This document shows positions 9,862-19,325 of a DNA stretch of 64,000 nucleotides, in pieces. Made by a program: the position numbers and the translations under genes. Position 1 is the first letter of the stretch. Every line of letters starts with the position of its first letter. Below the pieces are notes generated by a model. It was not told the DNA's origin, ran no database searches, and worked only from the letters and a program-made list of their open reading frames with translations. The stretch comes from Fervidobacterium pennivorans (GTDB lineage Bacteria > Thermotogota > Thermotogae > Thermotogales > Fervidobacteriaceae), in contig NZ_CP011393.1 in assembly GCF_001644665.1 (NCBI RefSeq), positions 766,001-830,000 of the forward strand, in the 5' to 3' direction.

Positions 9862-10536
9862 TCAGTCACTTTTCGAATAATACAAAGAATATCCCGTTGT
9901 GTATCCAAGAAGAAATCCATAATAAACATCTGAAAACCAGTGGTTTTTTGACCAAAGTCGTTGAAGTGAGAATATTGTCGGAACAACGTACCAAAACTTC
10001 CCGAACCTTTCGGCAATAGGTGTAAATATCGCCCAACTTATCGCGGCGTGTCCTGATGGGAACGACTGGTAGGCGTTTTCCATTGAAAAGAATTTAAAAA
10101 GAAAAGGATTTCCATTAACAAAAGGTCTTGCACGCCCCACCAGAAATTTTATAGTTCCTGTTATAAGCACACTCACTGCAAAACTTTCGATAACAGTCCA
10201 CGCTGTGTAGCTATCAAATGGAAATATCAATCCCGATGCTATTATTGAAATTAATGCAAAATCAAAAATATCAATGTCATTCAAGACTTTGAAAAAATCC
10301 GAGCTCGGGAGACTCTCGTTAACAGTGCTGTCGAGTGCGAAGCTAAACGCTCCTAATGAGAACAGATAAATTTGCGAATCATTGGTCTTAAATAAAGACG
10401 ATAAGTCCACTTTCAACTCGTCAAAATAATCCGCACTACCGCAAGTTTGACCAAATGATAGACTGAAACTGAGCAATATTACTAGAGTCATTGCTGCAAA
10501 AATAACATTTATGTTTAAAAATTTTAACTTCCCCAT
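9862..10536 (-). CDS. PAP2-superfamily membrane phosphatase
   Basis: A 224-residue phosphatase of the phosphatidic-acid-phosphatase type 2 superfamily, expected to dephosphorylate a lipid phosphate at the membrane. An N-terminal signal/anchor (VIFAAMTLVILLSFSLSFG) precedes several hydrophobic segments. The three catalytic motifs are present: KFLVGRARPF (~132-141), SFPSGHAA (~158-165) and a degenerate third motif around SKNHWFSDVYYG (~195-206). The ATG at 10536 follows AGGAGTGAGATTGG. It is transcribed divergently from the gene at 10690 and probably together with the hydrolase downstream. Confidence 0.85.
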   Translation of the reverse strand: MGKLKFLNINVIFAAMTLVILLSFSLSFGQTCGSADYFDELKVDLSSLFKTNDSQIYLFSLGAFSFALDSTVNESLPSSDFFKVLNDIDIFDFALISIIASGLIFPFDSYTAWTVIESFAVSVLITGTIKFLVGRARPFVNGNPFLFKFFSMENAYQSFPSGHAAISWAIFTPIAERFGKFWYVVPTIFSLQRLWSKNHWFSDVYYGFLLGYTTGYSLYYSKSD

Positions 10537-10689
10537 CCAATCTCACTCCTGGCAGACCGCGTTCTAAAAAGATTATACTCTCAATCTATTACTTTTCAAC
10601 CAACCACAGCCCTAACTTCACACACTTGTTTGAAAAAAAGTAGTATAATAAAAACGAAGAAACACGATTTAAAAGTGAGGTGATAGGTA

Positions 10690-11964
10690 ATGAAAGGGAT
10701 TAATTTTACTATAATCTTCATAATTGCAGTATTCGTAATAGGTGGCATCGCCATTTATGCTTACGAGCACTTTCGTTACTCTCCATATGCTCTCCAAGTC
10801 GATTTAGGAGTTGTCATAGAATGGCTTAGAGACAGACATGTTGACCTCGTTGATGCCAAATTAATTTATGAATTAACCAACACAAAACTAACAATCGATA
10901 AACGTCAAACACCATACGAGTTTGCCCTCGCGGTTTACCCGTTACTTTCGATTTTTAAAGACAACACAACCCGTTTGGAAATACCACTAAAATCAACGGA
11001 CAAAGTATTACCCTTAAGGTTTAAGTACGTCGATGGAAAAGTCGTTGTTTCGATGAGCGAATGTGAAATACCCGTTGGTTCGACTATATTGTCGATAAAT
11101 GGTTATCCTATAGAGGATATCTTAGAAAAGTATAAGAATTTGTATCCCACGTGTGAGAACTTCCAACAGGTCTACTCCTTCGTAGATAAGCTCCTACCAC
11201 ACTATCCTAAGATAATTGATGCAAGTACTTTACAAATAAAGTATCAACTACCCAATTCATCTGCTCAGCGCACATCTTACATCAAAACCATTTCCTTTAA
11301 AGATTTTCAAAAAGATATGCATTTAACACCCGTTGAACTATACAACCTGGGACAATACACCATTGTGAAGATTAACACCTTTAATATTTCAAAAAAAGAG
11401 GATATGAAAGTCGTAGAAGATGTATTTCAAAAATTGTCAAACAAGAACGGAAGCATAATTTTCGATTTGCGTTACGCCTCTGATGGTGATGCTACCATCC
11501 CTTCAGCCATCATCTCAAGACTTATAGATGAACCAACTTATCTTTACCCGAAACTAATAACACGCTATAGATACCGTCAAGTAGAAAAGAAGCAAATTCC
11601 CATTGAACCAGACAGCGCCAGAATTTCCAAAGACGTTTATTTCATTGTAGACAGTTCTTGTTTTTACACACCCCACAAAATTCTGCTTTCTTTTGTTGCA
11701 ACTAATAAGATTGGGAAAGTGCTAACAACAGAGAATGAAACAAGCACACTTTTCTCAGACCTTTCATTCTACACAGACGAGTTTTGGAAGATTCTTCCAA
11801 ACACAAGAGCTTATATTGTAATGCCGTTATCAAAGGTAATCGTTGAAAACAATTTAGAAGAGGACCAGATTCAAATTGTTAATCTGACCTTTAATGAAAG
11901 TCTGCTGTTCGACAAAACGGCATACAAAGACTGGCTTAAAGAATTCATTTCTAGAATAAAATAA
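10690..11964 (+). CDS. Membrane-anchored S41-peptidase-like protein, probably inactive
   Basis: A 424-residue protein with one N-terminal transmembrane anchor (~5-24) and a large extracytoplasmic domain. A PDZ-like segment (VPVGSTILSINGYPIEDIL, ~128-146) is followed by IIFDLRYASDGDA (~256-268), which resembles the S41/C-terminal-processing-protease strand. VYFIVDSSCFYTPHKI (~316-331) sits where the catalytic Ser would be. That Ser appears to be replaced (FYTPH instead of the usual FSAAE), so protease activity is doubtful. The ATG at 10690 follows GAGGTGATAG; a TATAAT hexamer at 10644-10649 is a likely -10. The next gene starts 31 bases downstream on the same strand. Confidence 0.5.
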   Translation: MKGINFTIIFIIAVFVIGGIAIYAYEHFRYSPYALQVDLGVVIEWLRDRHVDLVDAKLIYELTNTKLTIDKRQTPYEFALAVYPLLSIFKDNTTRLEIPLKSTDKVLPLRFKYVDGKVVVSMSECEIPVGSTILSINGYPIEDILEKYKNLYPTCENFQQVYSFVDKLLPHYPKIIDASTLQIKYQLPNSSAQRTSYIKTISFKDFQKDMHLTPVELYNLGQYTIVKINTFNISKKEDMKVVEDVFQKLSNKNGSIIFDLRYASDGDATIPSAIISRLIDEPTYLYPKLITRYRYRQVEKKQIPIEPDSARISKDVYFIVDSSCFYTPHKILLSFVATNKIGKVLTTENETSTLFSDLSFYTDEFWKILPNTRAYIVMPLSKVIVENNLEEDQIQIVNLTFNESLLFDKTAYKDWLKEFISRIK

Positions 11965-11995
11965 AGTCAGCAAAAAATCTTAGGGTGGTGAGAGT

Positions 11996-13060
11996 ATGTT
12001 CTCAGAAGGGATATTAGAACATCTTCAAGAAACGAAAGTTGTAGATTTTCTTGATGAGCTAGAAATACCTGCGTACGTTGTAGATAAAAACCGACGTATC
12101 GTTTTTTGGAACAAGCAGGCTACAAAGTTAACAGGTTACGAAGCAAATGAAGTAGTTGGTAAATTTTGTGCTGAACAAGTATTGAACCATGTTGACAGAA
12201 CGGGTATTCCTGTGTGTAATACTGAGCTGTGTCCACTTTATCAATCAATCAAAAATGGTATCCCAGTTCAAGTACCATTTGCGGTGTATGGACTTACCAA
12301 ATCAGGAAAAAGGCGCCCGTTTTCAGTTGTTGGTTTGCCCATAAAAAAGGATAACGAAGTACTTGGTGCCATTGAATTATTCACTGATGTCGAAAAAATG
12401 GATGCAGATATGAGCCTTGCTATAAGAATTCAAGAAAGTTTTGTCCCACAAAACACCGAAAATATCGAATTCTTCTATCGTCCATCTACTGGACTTGGAG
12501 GGGATATGATATATTACAATCCACCTTGGGTAGGCATAATAGACATAAGCGGACACGGTATTGCGGCTGCGCTTGTAAGTATGCTTGTTCGTACTACTTT
12601 GGATACAATAATTGCGTTCGACCCTCCATTACAAGGTTTACCGTTCCTTCTGGAAAACGAACTCAAAAAATTCAGCTTTCAAAACATATACCTCACAGGC
12701 GTTATTGGTCAACTTAGCGAAGGGGTTTATAGATTCGTTAACATGGGACATCCTTCACCAATAAATGTGACCAAAAAAACGTTGATTGAAACGAAAAATG
12801 TAATACCTGTCGGATTCGGGTTCTCTGAAGAATACGATGAATCCGTCATCAACACTCACAATCTAAACGATGGGAACTTGCTGTTGTATACCGATGGATT
12901 AACGGAAATAAAAACAAAATCGGGAATGCTTACTAGTCAGGGGCTACTTGATATACTTTCACCAAATGATACTACGTCGACGATATATCTCAAAACATTA
13001 CATTTGCGTGCTCCAGGTTTACAAGAAGACGATATAACTATGATACTTTTCAAAAAATAA
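11996..13060 (+). CDS. PAS domain - SpoIIE/RsbU-type PP2C phosphatase
   Basis: A 354-residue soluble regulator. Residues ~15-130 form a PAS domain (PAYVVDKNRRIVFWNKQATKLTGY is its canonical core, with two Cys in a CNTELCPLY segment). Residues ~140-354 form a PP2C-type serine phosphatase domain of the SpoIIE/RsbU class, with GLGGDMIYY (~165), GIIDISGHGIAAAL (~178-191) and LLYTDGLTEI (~298-307), the metal-binding aspartates. Such proteins act in partner-switching networks that control anti-sigma or anti-anti-sigma factors. No partner gene is seen next to it. The PAS cysteines could hold a redox cofactor, but this is speculative. An intrinsic terminator follows at once. Confidence 0.85.
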   Translation: MFSEGILEHLQETKVVDFLDELEIPAYVVDKNRRIVFWNKQATKLTGYEANEVVGKFCAEQVLNHVDRTGIPVCNTELCPLYQSIKNGIPVQVPFAVYGLTKSGKRRPFSVVGLPIKKDNEVLGAIELFTDVEKMDADMSLAIRIQESFVPQNTENIEFFYRPSTGLGGDMIYYNPPWVGIIDISGHGIAAALVSMLVRTTLDTIIAFDPPLQGLPFLLENELKKFSFQNIYLTGVIGQLSEGVYRFVNMGHPSPINVTKKTLIETKNVIPVGFGFSEEYDESVINTHNLNDGNLLLYTDGLTEIKTKSGMLTSQGLLDILSPNDTTSTIYLKTLHLRAPGLQEDDITMILFKK

Positions 13061-13244: not shown

Positions 13245-16200
13245 ATGAGGTTTTCTCTGAAATCGGGGCTTAAAATTTTACCTGTCATCCTAATCTTCTT
13301 ATCAATCTTGGCATTCGCACTCGACGTAAAAATTATCTCTCCTAAGAATGGGGGCTACGTTTCATCAGAGTTCCTAGTTGGTGTTTCAGCCAGCGACCAA
13401 AAGGGTATTAAATTAGTAGAGCTATACGTTAACGGTTTCAAAATTTCGGAAAAATCTAATGAACCTTATGATTTCCAAATTCCAGTTAACGTTGGTCAAC
13501 TCAAGTGGAAACTTCAAATTGGCAACTACATAGCATCTTCCCCGGCATTGACAGCTGATGGAACAATTTATATCGCGAGTAAAGATACTAATCTCTACGC
13601 CATATCCTCTGATGGAAAAATAAAATGGAAGTTTAAAACCGGTGGTGAGGTCTTTTCTTCACCTGCATTAGGACCGGACGGAACTGTATATATCGGTAGT
13701 TCAGACACATACCTCTATGCTATAAAACCAGATGGTTCACTGAAATGGAAATTCAAGACGAATGACCGCATCGTTTCTTCTCCATCCATAGGAAAAGATG
13801 GCACGATATATGTTGGAAGCTACGATGGGCATCTTTATGCTGTTACGAAGGATGGTAAGCTTGTATGGAAATTTAAAACCGGTGGCTGGATTTCCTCTTC
13901 ACCGGCTATTACAGAAAATGCAATATACTTTGGAAGTTCTGACGACTACTTTTACGCAGTCACCACCACAGGTAAACTTATTTGGAAGTTCAAGGCGAAT
14001 AACGATATAACCTCTTCGTCCGCAATTTCAAACGATGGTACAATTTACTTTGGAAGCCTCGACAATTTCCTTTATTCAATCAATTCTGACGGAACACCAA
14101 AATGGAAGTTTGAAACTGGTGATGACATCGTCTCTTCACCTGTTATAGGACCTGATGGAACGATTTACGCAACAAGTAAAGATGGCTATCTCTATGCGAT
14201 TTCTTCGGACGGAACACAAAAGTGGAAATTCAAAACAGAGAAAGAAATAACCTCCTCTCCACTAATAGGTGCTGATGGCAAAATTTACGTATCAAGTTCA
14301 GATAACATGCTTTATTGTCTATCTTCCGATGGCCAGTTATCCTGGAGCTTCAAAGCAGCAGCTGCTATTATCTCGTCGCCTGCTATAAATCTTGGTGGAA
14401 CGATTTACTTCACAACGGCAAATGGAATTATCTATGCAGTTCAAACTTCTTCGTTTGGACTTGCGAACAGTTCGTGGCCCAAGTTCAAAGGAAATGCCTG
14501 CAATACAGCACTTTTTGGTGACAAATCGGGAATCAGCTCATATTTGGAGCTTAAAGCAATTGCGTATAGCAAATCTGGTAACAAGGCACAGGAAGTTATA
14601 AAAGTCATTCCAGATTACGTGCCACCAGTTCTTTACTTCAAAGCTCCAAAGCATGGAGATTTTGTAAAAAAAGAGTTCACTGTAGAAACTGAAGCAAAAG
14701 ATGATAATGGTATCAGCAAAGTAGAATTGTATTTGCAAGGTCAGAAGATAGCAGAAAAACTAACTCCGCCATATACATTTGTTATCGACCTGAACACAGT
14801 TCAGATTCCAAAAATTGGAAGTCCAAACATAGAAAACGTAGGAAGAGAAATATGGAAGGCAAAGTTGAATACTGAAGTATGGTCAAGTCCTGCGCTGGCA
14901 AGAGACGGAACAATGTACATAGGAACTTACGATGGTTTTGTGTACTCGTTAACCCCTTCTGGACAAGTTAAATGGAAATTCCAAACAAACGGAAGAATTC
15001 ACGCTTCACCATCGATATCGAACGATGGAACCATATATGTTGCAAATCTCAATGGGTATTTATATGCGCTCTACCCGGATGGTTCCTTGAAATGGAATTT
15101 TAAAATTGGGGATGCAATATACTCATCACCAGCCATTAGCACAGAAGATAGTACTATTTTCTTTGGAAGTCGAGATGGATTCATATACGCTGTGAATGCT
15201 GATGGAAAACTGAAATGGAAGTTCCAAACAAAAGGTGAAATTCTTTCGTCACCAGCTATAGACTATAACGGGACAATTTATATCGGTAGTAAGGACGGGC
15301 ATCTGTATGCACTAACACCAACAGGTAAATTACTTTGGGAATTTAAAACAGAAGGTGAAATAGACACATCTCCAGCACTAGGCATTGATGGTAGCATATT
15401 TATCGCAAGTAGTGATAAATACCTTTACGCAATCACGTCCGAGGGAAAACTCAAATGGAAATTCCTGACACCTGATGGTATAAAGTACTCAGCAATAATA
15501 GGTCCAGATGGGACGATTTACATAGGCAGCGACAAACTCTACGCAATTTCACCAGATGGTAAGCTAAAGTGGGAATTTGAAACTGATAATCCTGTTACCT
15601 CATCTCCTACACTTGGCTTTGATAATTTAATCTACGTTACAGCTGGTAAGTATCTATATGCGATAACTGTTTCAGGTGAAAAGAAATGGGTTTTAGAACT
15701 TGAAGAAGATGCAGGAGTTTTAACGTCTCCAACAATCAGTGATGACGGTAGGTTATACATCTCAGGTTCAAATGGTTATTTGTTTGCAATTCAATCTTCT
15801 TCGTTGGGATTAGCAGCAAGTCCTTGGCCCAAGCTTGATAGAAATCTTGGAAATACAGCAAATATCGTCGATGAACTTGATTATTCTGGAATCATGCTGG
15901 AACTAACCGTAGTTGCTTACGATGTTGCGGAAAACAAAAAGAAACAAACACTATTTGTTAAAGTAGACAACAGTGAACCACAGGTTTATATTTCACCGTA
16001 CAATGACAAAGCCGTAGTCACTGGAAATGTTCAAATCACCATCTACGCATTCGATAAGAGCGGAATAGAAAAACTGGAAACATACTTTGACGAACAAAAA
16101 ATCCACGAAGGTAAAACAGGATTTGCCGTTTTGAACATCAACACTTCAGAATACAAAGAAAAACCATATACATTAAAAGTAATTGTGCAGGACAAGTATG

Positions 16201-17555
16201 GAAACACATCAGAAAAATACATAACCCTCATCATCGATAGAACTCCTCCGAAAGTATCATTTGTAGATTTGAGAGATGGTTCAAAAATAACAAAAGAATC
16301 GAGTATAGTTGTAACAGCAAGTGATGAAAACGGAGTTTCCAAAGTTGAATTGTACGTTGCCGGTCAGAAAGTAGGTGAGATAACCTCTGAACCTTACGAA
16401 TTCAATTTAAACCTCCTTGATGGTGTGCTCAAGTGGAAAATAAAAACCAATGGTGATATACTCTCAACACCAGCTGTGGCAGATGATGGAACAATCTACA
16501 TTGGAAGTCTTGATGGTTACCTATATGCAATATCACCTGATGGAAAAATCAAATGGAAATTCCCGACTGACTACGAGATTTGGTCATCACCTGCAATAGG
16601 CAACGATGGCACAATATACATTGGAAGTAGTGATAGTTATCTTTACGCTGTTACACCAGATGGTAAGCTAAAGTGGAAATTTAAAACTGGCTATGAAATC
16701 TGGTCTTCACCTGCTGTAGCTCCAGACGGAACAATTTACCTTGCGAGCAAAGACAGTTACGTATATGCACTCACACCACAGGGAAAGTTGAAATGGATAT
16801 TCCAAACTGGGAACTGGATTTACTCTTCCCCAGCGATTGGTAACGACGGCACTATATATGTAGGTAGCACTGATAAGTACTTATATGCAATTTCTCCCAC
16901 AGGAAAGCTCAGATGGAAATTCAAGATGGATGGCGAAATCTTGGCTTCACCCGCTATTGGAGCTGATGGCACAATCTACGTGGGATGCAAAGACACATAC
17001 CTTTATGCAGTCTCACCAGACGGAAAACTGAAATGGAAATTCAAAACAAACGGAGAAATACTTTCATGCCCAGTTATAGGACCTGACGACACTATTTATT
17101 TCGGTAGTACAGACAATCATCTCTACGCTATATCACCTGATGGAAAGTTGAGGTGGAAACTCAGAACAGGAGATTCAATAACTTCCTCCGCATTGATTGG
17201 CGCTGATGGTATTATATACGTAGGTAGCAACGATAACAACTTGTATGCGATAACTCCTGACGGAAAGTTCAAATGGAGATTCCAAGCCGATGAGGATATA
17301 GCTTCCGGTTTGGCAATCAGTAAAGACGGTGTAATATATTTCGGAAGTGATGACAACCACCTTTATGCACTTTACACAACATCATTCGGATTGGCTAACG
17401 CACCTTGGCCCAAAGACAGAGCAAATAACTTCAACACAGGAAGGTTTGGAGACAGGTATGGTGTATCGGACGGTGCAGTCACAATTAAGGCTGTTGCTTA
17501 CGACATTGTCGGAAATGCAACCGAATGTGTAATCCAGGTGTTTGTAAAATGGTAA
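13245..17555 (+). CDS. Secreted protein: three 8-bladed PQQ-type propellers nested in Ig-like domains
   Basis: A 1436-residue protein with a signal peptide (~1-26, LPVILIFLSILAFA). There are about 24 repeats of ~38 residues, each close to SSPAIGxDGTIYxGSxDxxLYAxxPDGKLKWKF, in three groups of eight: ~86-420, ~533-870 and ~1061-1395. Each group ends with the PQQ-quinoprotein-like closing segment (LANSSWPKF, LAASPWPKL, LANAPWPKD, followed by a NT). Between them lie halves of Ig-like domains: PKNGGYVSSEF...VELYVNGFKI...PYDF before a propeller and LELKAIAYSKSGNKA after it. Each propeller is therefore inserted inside an Ig-like fold; one Ig domain (~906-1000) is uninterrupted. No PQQ-binding catalytic residues were identified, so a structural or binding role at the cell surface is more likely than dehydrogenase activity. 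The ATG follows CAGGGGGTGAAG. Confidence 0.85.
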   Translation: MRFSLKSGLKILPVILIFLSILAFALDVKIISPKNGGYVSSEFLVGVSASDQKGIKLVELYVNGFKISEKSNEPYDFQIPVNVGQLKWKLQIGNYIASSPALTADGTIYIASKDTNLYAISSDGKIKWKFKTGGEVFSSPALGPDGTVYIGSSDTYLYAIKPDGSLKWKFKTNDRIVSSPSIGKDGTIYVGSYDGHLYAVTKDGKLVWKFKTGGWISSSPAITENAIYFGSSDDYFYAVTTTGKLIWKFKANNDITSSSAISNDGTIYFGSLDNFLYSINSDGTPKWKFETGDDIVSSPVIGPDGTIYATSKDGYLYAISSDGTQKWKFKTEKEITSSPLIGADGKIYVSSSDNMLYCLSSDGQLSWSFKAAAAIISSPAINLGGTIYFTTANGIIYAVQTSSFGLANSSWPKFKGNACNTALFGDKSGISSYLELKAIAYSKSGNKAQEVIKVIPDYVPPVLYFKAPKHGDFVKKEFTVETEAKDDNGISKVELYLQGQKIAEKLTPPYTFVIDLNTVQIPKIGSPNIENVGREIWKAKLNTEVWSSPALARDGTMYIGTYDGFVYSLTPSGQVKWKFQTNGRIHASPSISNDGTIYVANLNGYLYALYPDGSLKWNFKIGDAIYSSPAISTEDSTIFFGSRDGFIYAVNADGKLKWKFQTKGEILSSPAIDYNGTIYIGSKDGHLYALTPTGKLLWEFKTEGEIDTSPALGIDGSIFIASSDKYLYAITSEGKLKWKFLTPDGIKYSAIIGPDGTIYIGSDKLYAISPDGKLKWEFETDNPVTSSPTLGFDNLIYVTAGKYLYAITVSGEKKWVLELEEDAGVLTSPTISDDGRLYISGSNGYLFAIQSSSLGLAASPWPKLDRNLGNTANIVDELDYSGIMLELTVVAYDVAENKKKQTLFVKVDNSEPQVYISPYNDKAVVTGNVQITIYAFDKSGIEKLETYFDEQKIHEGKTGFAVLNINTSEYKEKPYTLKVIVQDKYGNTSEKYITLIIDRTPPKVSFVDLRDGSKITKESSIVVTASDENGVSKVELYVAGQKVGEITSEPYEFNLNLLDGVLKWKIKTNGDILSTPAVADDGTIYIGSLDGYLYAISPDGKIKWKFPTDYEIWSSPAIGNDGTIYIGSSDSYLYAVTPDGKLKWKFKTGYEIWSSPAVAPDGTIYLASKDSYVYALTPQGKLKWIFQTGNWIYSSPAIGNDGTIYVGSTDKYLYAISPTGKLRWKFKMDGEILASPAIGADGTIYVGCKDTYLYAVSPDGKLKWKFKTNGEILSCPVIGPDDTIYFGSTDNHLYAISPDGKLRWKLRTGDSITSSALIGADGIIYVGSNDNNLYAITPDGKFKWRFQADEDIASGLAISKDGVIYFGSDDNHLYALYTTSFGLANAPWPKDRANNFNTGRFGDRYGVSDGAVTIKAVAYDIVGNATECVIQVFVKW

Positions 17556-17618: not shown

Positions 17619-17654
17619 GCACGGCTTCAGTCCTTCCTGAAGCCGTGCTTTTTT
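17619..17654 (+). terminator. Strong intrinsic terminator
   Basis: A perfect 12-bp stem GCACGGCTTCAG (17619-17630) / CTGAAGCCGTGC (17637-17648), six-base loop, then TTTTTT. It ends the transcript of the large propeller protein. Confidence 0.92.
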
Positions 17655-17863
17655 ATTATACCATCCCAATCTCGAAAATGAATCAAATCAAAGCATTACA
17701 TAAAGAATCTACGCAAATCAAAAGAATACAAAATACTTGCTTAGTGCGCAGATATAATAGCCAGGTTTTTAATACAATTAAATGGCTACTTTGATTATCG
17801 TAATACTCTATACTCAACTTCCAAGCAATTAAAACAAAGGGCACTAATTTTTATATTTCCTTA

Positions 17864-17892
17864 TTGATAATATTCGAATTTTCTTATATACT
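17864..17892 (+). promoter_or_regulatory. Promoter of the arsR operon with a palindrome in the spacer
   Basis: TTGATA (17864-17869) and TATACT (17887-17892) are separated by exactly 17 bases, a strong sigma-70-type promoter. The spacer carries the perfect palindrome ATTCGAAT (17872-17879). A repressor bound there would block RNA polymerase, and the first gene of the operon is an ArsR-type repressor, so this is the likely operator (inference). The first start codon is 40 bases downstream of the -10. Confidence 0.75.
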
Positions 17893-17931
17893 AAAAATGG
17901 AAAACAAAATTCCTTATGGAAGGTGGTCTAT

Positions 17932-18231
17932 ATGGAATTGGAAAATGTGGCTGAACTTTTGAAAATTATCGGTCACCCGACAAGATTAAAAATATTACAG
18001 CTTCTAAAACAAAATGGTGAATTGTGTGTTTGTGAACTTCTTCCTTTGCTGGAAGTAAGTCAACCTAACCTCTCTCAACACCTTTCAATTTTGAAATTGA
18101 GTGGATTGGTCGAAAATAACAAAGTGGGCAACACTATCAGATATCGACTTTCAGATAACAAACTATTGAACGAAATTTTAGAGATTGTAGAAAAACATAC
18201 TTATTCGGAGGTGAATCCAAGTGGCAAGTGA
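17932..18231 (+). CDS. ArsR/SmtB-family transcriptional regulator
   Basis: A 99-residue winged-helix repressor. LKIIGHPTRLKILQLL opens the ArsR fold, and ELCVCELLPLLEVSQPNLSQHLSILKLSGLV contains the recognition helix. The ELCVCEL motif (cysteines ~29 and ~31) is the classic metal/metalloid-sensing site on the alpha-3 helix of ArsR-type proteins, so the inducer is probably a thiophilic metal or metalloid. A GTG three codons upstream is in frame, but ATG 17932 is preferred because GGAAGGTGG lies 5 bases before it. Its last 11 bases overlap the permease start, and the gene probably autoregulates through the palindrome at 17872. Confidence 0.9.
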   Translation: MELENVAELLKIIGHPTRLKILQLLKQNGELCVCELLPLLEVSQPNLSQHLSILKLSGLVENNKVGNTIRYRLSDNKLLNEILEIVEKHTYSEVNPSGK

Positions 18232-19325
18232 GATTAAACTGTTTATAGCTATTCTTATTGTATTTTTAATTTTCTACTTCGTTCCATTTGATTTACCGAT
18301 TGTTAGTGAAAGCATTCTCAACGGTTTCAAGATGCTCAACGAATATGCACGTGAACATGTTCTTCTCTGCCTTGTGCCTGCATTCTTTATTGCAGGAACA
18401 ATCTCTGTCATGCTGAAGAAAGATGCTATTCTAAAACTCCTTGGTCCTGATGCAAAACGATACATTTCCTATCCGATTGCTGCAATCAGTGGCGCCATTC
18501 TTGCTGTGTGTTCCTGTACAATTCTTCCACTCTTTGGTGGTATATACAAAAAAGGTGCTGGAATAGGACCTGCAACGACATTCTTATTTGCTGGACCTGC
18601 GATAAATATCGCTGCAATATTCTTGACAGCACGCGTACTCGGTTGGGATTTAGGGATTGCCAGAATGATAGCAACAATTACAGCAGCGATAATAATAGGT
18701 CTTATTATGGAACTTTTATTCAAAGAAAAAGGCGTTGGTGGCTTTGTTCAGACAACCTCGGATGGTACAGATAACGTAAAAGCAATTGTTTTCTTCCTAA
18801 TACAACTACTCTTCATCATTGTCTCAGGACTAAAGATTAACCCAACCGTTAAATATTCAAGTTTGGGTTTTCTTGGACTTAGCATATTAACAATGGCGGT
18901 ATTTGGATTTGAAAAAGACCAAACAAAGAGCTGGATAGCTGAAACTTGGGACTTTGCAAAAAAAAATACTTCCATATCTATTTGTTGGTGTATTCCTTGC
19001 GGGAGTAATTACAAAACTATTGCCACAAGATGTAGTTGTTTACTTGCTTGGAAAGAATAACATATTCTCAACTTTTATAGCTTCCGTTATAGGTGCACTA
19101 ATGTACTTTGCAACCCTTACAGAAGTTCCTATAGTTCAAGCACTCACACAACTTGGAATGGCAAAAGGTCCTACACTTGCATTGCTCATGGCTGGAAACA
19201 CTCTTAGCTTGCCAAGCATGATAGTTATAACAAAACTTATCGGCAAAAAGAAAGCATTTACTTACTTCGGACTCGTTGTGCTTTTCTCGACTCTGTTTGG
19301 AATGATATATGGGCTGATAGCTTGA
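18221..19325 (+). pseudogene. UPF0718/ArsP-like permease, frameshifted at a run of nine A
   Basis: A multi-pass permease of the DUF318/UPF0718 family. The GTG start at 18221 is preceded by TCGGAGGTGAAT. The N-terminal 245 or so residues carry the family motif AVCSCTILPLFGGIYKKGAGIGPA with its CxC pair. The frame then goes wrong at the A-run 18958-18966: with nine A the product ends after a short tail at 19060, while with eight A it continues as DFAKKILPYLFVGVFL and runs to 19325, giving a normal ~367-residue permease. Both halves are otherwise undecayed, which suggests a recent indel, polymerase slippage at the homopolymer, or a sequencing error. The family members near ArsR and small thioredoxins are thought to export a thiophilic metal or metalloid. 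Confidence 0.8.

Follow-up and report, generated by a model that had tools for sequence, protein, structure and literature searches.

Can one protein hold three whole beta-propellers, each lodged within an immunoglobulin (Ig)-like domain, and how would such a layout have come about? This question is raised by a gene in the complete 2.06 Mb genome of the thermophilic bacterium Fervidobacterium pennivorans (NCBI RefSeq assembly GCF_001644665.1), located at 13245-17555 on the + strand of the window, i.e. the whole 64,000-nucleotide stretch that we analyzed (contig NZ_CP011393.1, positions 766,001 to 830,000). The gene is a single open frame over exactly these coordinates and encodes 1436 amino acids. 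An earlier note, made from the DNA alone, had proposed that three eight-repeat propellers of the pyrroloquinoline quinone (PQQ) type each split an Ig-like domain, with the halves re-forming the domain around the propeller. Our analysis points to a protein that is secreted but not lipidated, located in the envelope or outside the cell, and branched in a comb-like layout, which would have arisen by propeller insertion followed by duplication; the protein may serve in binding or scaffolding; we put the probability of this reading as a whole at about 0.72.

Results

Pfam analysis of the protein returned PQQ-type propeller families (PF13360/PF13570), far above the cut-off, together with four Big_7 (PF17957) Ig domains scoring 48.1, 43.5, 42.5 and 33.7 bits, all above the gathering score of 24.1. 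Counting blades by the W-x-F motif gave 24 in three groups of eight, and the three eight-repeat PQQ-type propellers of the earlier note are thereby confirmed. Along the chain, a signal peptide is followed by Ig1 (split around propeller 1), Ig2 (split around propeller 2), an intact Ig3, and Ig4 (split around propeller 3). The uninterrupted Ig3 (residues 912-1002), lying between modules 2 and 3, is absent from the earlier note and provides an internal control.

Three of the four Big_7 domains are not contiguous in the chain. On the 70-position Pfam model, matches to the split domains cover 1-58, 1-59 and 3-57 vs. 6-70 for intact Ig3, with the remainder found past the propeller. With a hidden Markov model (HMM) built only from 11 uninterrupted Ig domains of three other proteins, the N-halves start at position 1 or 3 and stop at 54-57, and the C-halves resume at 65-85, 57-90 and 60-86, which places the cut in the E-F loop of all three domains. 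The cut is thus at the same point each time, as had been claimed, but one strand later than stated, namely between strands E (PYxFxL) and F (AYDxxGN). Splicing of N- and C-halves yielded 68.0, 73.5 and 84.0 bits with the intact-Ig HMM vs. 53.8, 52.1 and 55.7 bits for the N-half alone. In 3000 controls, made with random propeller segments or with shuffled C-halves, the observed splice score was never reached; the margin was narrowest in module 1 (best shuffle 67.1 vs. 68.0 observed). Judged by sequence, the Big_7 ranges and splice scores bear out the proposed nesting, the split halves making up a complete Ig domain with chance excluded. The features, by coordinates in the window, are as follows.

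13245..13319, + strand: signal peptide, residues 1-25 (...LSILAFA/LD), from the sequence; no cysteine
13320..13490, + strand: Ig1 N-half, strands A-E, residues 26-82; Big_7 positions 3-57, 42.5 bits
13491..14450, + strand: propeller 1, eight PQQ-type blades, residues 83-402; Pfam, W motif and AlphaFold2 strands
14451..14534, + strand: propeller 1 tail (FGLANSSWPKFKGNACNTA...), mostly low-confidence linker, residues 403-430; like the tail of non-nested propellers, predicted local distance difference test score (pLDDT) <50
14535..14627, + strand: Ig1 C-half, strands F-G, residues 431-461; intact-Ig HMM positions 65-85 and splice test
14628..14798, + strand: Ig2 N-half, strands A-E, residues 462-518; Big_7 positions 1-59, 43.5 bits
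14835..15794, + strand: propeller 2, eight blades, residues 531-850; W motif and AlphaFold2 strands
15795..15881, + strand: propeller 2 tail/linker, residues 851-879; comparison with non-nested tails, and AlphaFold2
15882..15977, + strand: Ig2 C-half, strands F-G, residues 880-911; intact-Ig HMM positions 57-90 and splice test
15978..16250, + strand: Ig3, uninterrupted Big_7, residues 912-1002, internal control; Big_7 6-70, intact-Ig HMM 1-91
16251..16415, + strand: Ig4 N-half, strands A-E, residues 1003-1057; Big_7 positions 1-58, 48.1 bits
16419..17378, + strand: propeller 3, eight blades, residues 1059-1378; W motif, AlphaFold2 and VIA-align match to Cake8 6tjg
17379..17459, + strand: propeller 3 tail/linker, residues 1379-1405; mostly pLDDT <50
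17460..17552, + strand: Ig4 C-half, strands F-G, residues 1406-1436, end of the protein; intact-Ig HMM 60-86, pLDDT ~87
17619..17648, + strand: terminator-like hairpin 3' of the gene, 12-bp stem then T-run, from the sequence

Two segments were modeled with AlphaFold2: residues 905-1436, with an alignment of nested and propeller-only relatives that contained no intact Ig from non-nested proteins, and residues 24-913. In the former (mean pLDDT 88.4), the order of strands is alike in intact Ig3 and split Ig4, and strands F and G of Ig4, of 10 residues each plus the F-G turn, equal those of Ig3 in length and have a pLDDT of ~87 after a linker below 50. In the latter (mean pLDDT 81), strands F/G score ~86-88 in Ig1 and ~69-75 in Ig2. 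The models thus support halves that are structured with the strand pattern of an intact Ig, with high confidence in modules 1 and 3 and moderate confidence in module 2, and the structure prediction that had been suggested as a check agrees with nesting in the predicted strand order of split and intact domains and in the confidently predicted C-halves of modules 1 and 3. Propeller 3 matched the designed propeller Cake8 (6tjg) over 320 residues with a VIA-align Z of 53.8 and a root-mean-square deviation of 0.7; the fold search returned propellers only and is uninformative on the Ig part.

The joints between consecutive Ig domains (DYVPPV for Ig1-Ig2, DNSEPQ for Ig2-Ig3 and DRTPPK for Ig3-Ig4) are similar to DNTPPS, the joint found in relatives whose Big_7 arrays are uninterrupted. 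The entry linker of each propeller is short, with 7 residues separating the predicted strands in modules 1 and 3 and ~19 in module 2; the exit linker is long (~30 residues) and includes a WPK...NTG tail common to non-nested propellers. We surmise that the four Big_7 domains, placed head to tail, would form one ordinary tandem stalk with the propellers out of line, each hanging off the side by two linkers that enter and leave at the E-F loop of its Ig domain. Each propeller probably closes on itself, its first strand completing the last blade, so that its ends would lie near each other and a loop could take it. We hold this architecture to be very probable. The signal region contains no cysteine and the protein is therefore not a lipoprotein; reading of the 1436 residues by eye revealed no other obvious membrane segment or anchor beyond the signal peptide.

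An orthologue in a second species of the genus (G004) is 94% identical with an identical layout. The suggested search for Ig halves flanking a PQQ-like propeller was run in 103 Thermotogota genomes, within which our statements on distribution hold, and found the layout in these two. A model joining the propeller tail to the Ig C-half matched in full length at 6 places, all in the two nested-gene genomes, other genomes matching just one of the two parts, either the propeller tail or the Ig C-half; by a head model, an N-half directly joined to a propeller (294-339 bp) also occurs only in these two. The head-model match in a further genome, G008, spans 387-405 bp, ~30 residues longer, because an intact Ig C-half lies between. 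A profile scan of genome contigs for nested relatives found propellers only and no Big_7 halves by the HMMs used, and plasmid candidates from Deinococcus, Haliovirga and Haloplanus were discarded, as they have no Big_7 half by the same HMMs. Together with a literature search in which none of the papers found describes the layout, these tests (2/103 genomes) fit the earlier statement that no named family has it. As a separate observation, open frames of 1465-2010 codons in G050 and G044 (L083, L085, L086) combine several propellers with fn3 or other Ig-like domains; these have no Big_7 match in Pfam, although nesting in their fn3/Ig-like hosts was not examined in detail.

Relatives of the nested protein with a serial layout also occur in the genus. 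In two other species of it, G008 and G007, proteins of 834-856 codons carry 3-5 intact Big_7 domains and then one C-terminal propeller. These serial proteins of the genus (L091/L032, 856 aa; L090, 838 aa; L093/L042, 834 aa) share with the nested protein the Big_7 domains, the propeller type and the WPKF..NTG tail, but all their Ig domains are intact and the single propeller follows the array; L091 and L090 also have lipobox-like signals (LLSC/LSSC), unlike the nested protein. At the shared locus in G008 and G007 the nested gene is absent, its neighbors adjoining there with the ArsR upstream element conserved. No direct repeats of at least 10 bp, sought as a trace of gene insertion, flank the gene. 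In a tree of propellers, the three nested ones fall together, with one distant, long-branched Verrucomicrobia row inside the group.

The 24 repeats had been described as very similar and recently expanded, possibly with homologous recombination. We found a mean pairwise blade identity of ~0.49 in amino acids and ~0.57 in DNA, with modules 46-52% identical, so the repeats are not very similar. At positions with the same residue in two blades, codons are identical 38.5% of the time vs. 38.6% expected from codon usage, indicating that synonymous sites look saturated and the repeats old; consistent with this, Tandem Repeats Finder detected no array in the gene. As all 24 blades are collinear with their own counterparts in the orthologue and codon matching is at expectation (0.385 vs. 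0.386), a recent amplification of blades is rejected. Recombination is real in another form. DNA identity to the orthologue is 96.7% in propeller 1, 99.2% in propeller 2 and ~87% from residue ~850 to the end, with the 3' third of the gene equal to the local background vs. the sister species (~86-90%); tracts of 99-100% identity, against surroundings of ~88%, cover 14400-15600 and, in the flank, 9.9-12.6 kb (9900-12600). Such mosaic identity is what a recent exchange between the two species would produce, the exchanged tract not including propeller 3, and no shuffling of blades was seen.

The nested gene is flanked by a PAS-SpoIIE phosphatase gene on one side and an ArsR-permease pair on the other. 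The phosphatase gene is intact here and interrupted in the sister species (L092:9769-10865 (-)). The downstream permease gene (18221-19325) is in two overlapping frames here and in one frame of ~367-391 codons in three other genomes of the genus. A 40-bp AT-rich imperfect palindrome at 17862-17903, upstream of the ArsR gene, is 83-85% conserved in two genomes without the nested gene and is probably the ArsR operator. Other traces of the propeller family include a decayed fragment with stop codons, comprising the last blade and tail of a PQQ propeller (G000:C1:1884062-1884277, locus L006, outside the window), and a similar relic in G004 (C1:1239466-1239786). A W-P-x-F-R-x-N/D-x-x-x-T/N-G motif lies ahead of the propeller in some phyla (L009, L013, L018) and behind it in L011 and the Thermotogota loci, an arrangement reminiscent of a circular permutation of the family around the W-P-x-F tail.

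Discussion

Three other accounts of the layout have to be weighed against re-formed Ig domains. A fusion of separate proteins by an error of frame, assembly or annotation has next to no probability, and was refuted by the orthologue: an uninterrupted 1443-codon frame with the same layout, 94% identical, exists in two separate genomes, and the gene has its own terminator-like hairpin; we found no support for an artefact, although some neighboring genes are broken in one or other genome and errors nearby may exist. It is also conceivable that halves pair with their neighbors in sequence, the F-G strands of one C-half joining strands A-E of the next N-half as a circularly permuted Ig between propellers. 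Topologically this could happen once, given that the Ig1 C-half and Ig2 N-half are adjacent (residues 431-518), but we regard it as very unlikely in view of the following: 1) intact Ig3 sits between the Ig2 C-half and the Ig4 N-half; 2) the Ig1 N-half and Ig4 C-half would be left partnerless, permutation serving only one of three pairs; 3) the linkers from strand G to strand A have the normal Ig-Ig length, whereas a permuted Ig would presumably need one that crosses the domain; 4) both halves of Ig4 are well predicted in the model of residues 905-1436, which includes almost none of the neighboring Ig2 half. The halves might alternatively never rejoin, the N-half then being an incomplete Ig and the C-half no more than a linker or beta-hairpin cap. 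In the models, the linker leading up to each C-half is largely disordered, and pairing across the propeller is a matter of prediction, both of which speak for this account; its probability is nevertheless very small, since the C-halves of all three modules retain strand F-G sequence at exactly the complementary profile positions, C-half pLDDT is ~87 in two modules and all three pairs of halves are preserved in both species.

Some of our own data weigh against the comb-like protein as we propose it. The alignments behind the two AlphaFold2 models are shallow (22 and 14 rows), the second model has a predicted template modelling score (pTM) of 0.49, and confidence in the Ig2 C-half is only moderate, with strand pairing across the propeller surmised from predicted strand order and confidence. 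For the three nested propellers, a strictly single origin is uncertain (p-value of the approximately unbiased test, p-AU, 0.067; the Verrucomicrobia row falls inside), and their strict monophyly is neither shown nor rejected. In addition, no neighboring gene points to a ligand, and the sequence shows no anchor to the cell surface.

As to origin, the simplest reading is that a propeller was inserted into an Ig domain of a serial ancestor, a Big_7 array plus propeller of the kind still present in the genus, and that an old duplication of the nested unit would have followed. We are inclined to believe, with some reserve, that the comb arose in one lineage of the genus by insertion at the E-F loop and by multiplication of the nested unit, the serial form and empty locus of other species representing a before-and-after record; loss of the gene in G008 and G007 could still account for the empty locus.

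The propellers have the blade motif and eight-blade fold of other PQQ-like propellers, including the Cake/Bagel designs (6tjg, 8prj), YxaL (7dxn), M. maripaludis 3hxj and BamB, all of which differ in being single, stand-alone and not inserted in an Ig. In layout, the nested protein bears analogy to RrgA, a pilus adhesin of Streptococcus pneumoniae in which D3 is inserted in D2 and D2/D3 in D1, the D2 host being described as non-Ig-like and stabilized by an isopeptide bond (PMC5333627). This likeness is an analogy in nested layout, in a protein that is extracellular in the one case and probably so in the other; RrgA has other domains and one nested stack, vs. three parallel insertions here. The biofilm adhesin BapP of Pseudoalteromonas tunicata is a surface protein that combines a beta-propeller with numerous beta-sandwich repeats of Ig-like type (PMC12153261), but its propeller is five-bladed and N-terminal, and its arrangement serial. 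By likeness to these two adhesins, we tentatively suggest that the protein acts at the cell envelope as a scaffold or in multivalent binding (adhesion, matrix or ligand capture), a role that is possible but a little short of even odds. Pfam and reading of the sequence revealed no catalytic signature, that is, no lipobox, no vicinal cysteines and no other domain.

A role in outer-membrane assembly like that of BamB, or an enzymatic one as a quinoprotein, instead appears unlikely. PQQ_2/BamB families and TIGR03300 do score above cut-off, and BamB and PQQ-family propellers are among its structural neighbors. The TIGR03300 score, however, is summed over the 24 blades: this 377-position BamB model matches in 11 separate stretches, the best of which covers 64-174 (111/377 positions), and no single propeller accounts for the whole model. 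The lipobox cysteine of the BamB lipoprotein is missing, with no Cys in the signal region, as is the vicinal Cys-Cys disulfide found at the active site of quinoprotein (PQQ) alcohol dehydrogenases, there being no CC in the 1436 residues; in structure, the protein comes closest to designed repeat propellers and YxaL.

Domain insertion is a recognized route to new multidomain proteins. To our knowledge, close relatives in both the un-nested and the nested state are seldom available together. With the serial form, the nested form with its uninterrupted sibling Ig, and the empty locus all found in one genus, the steps of insertion, duplication, divergence and exchange become directly testable, and the nested protein and its serial counterparts in sister species illustrate cleanly how nesting comes about. 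In protein engineering, the Big_7 E-F loop would further lend itself to large insertions into thermostable Ig scaffolds.

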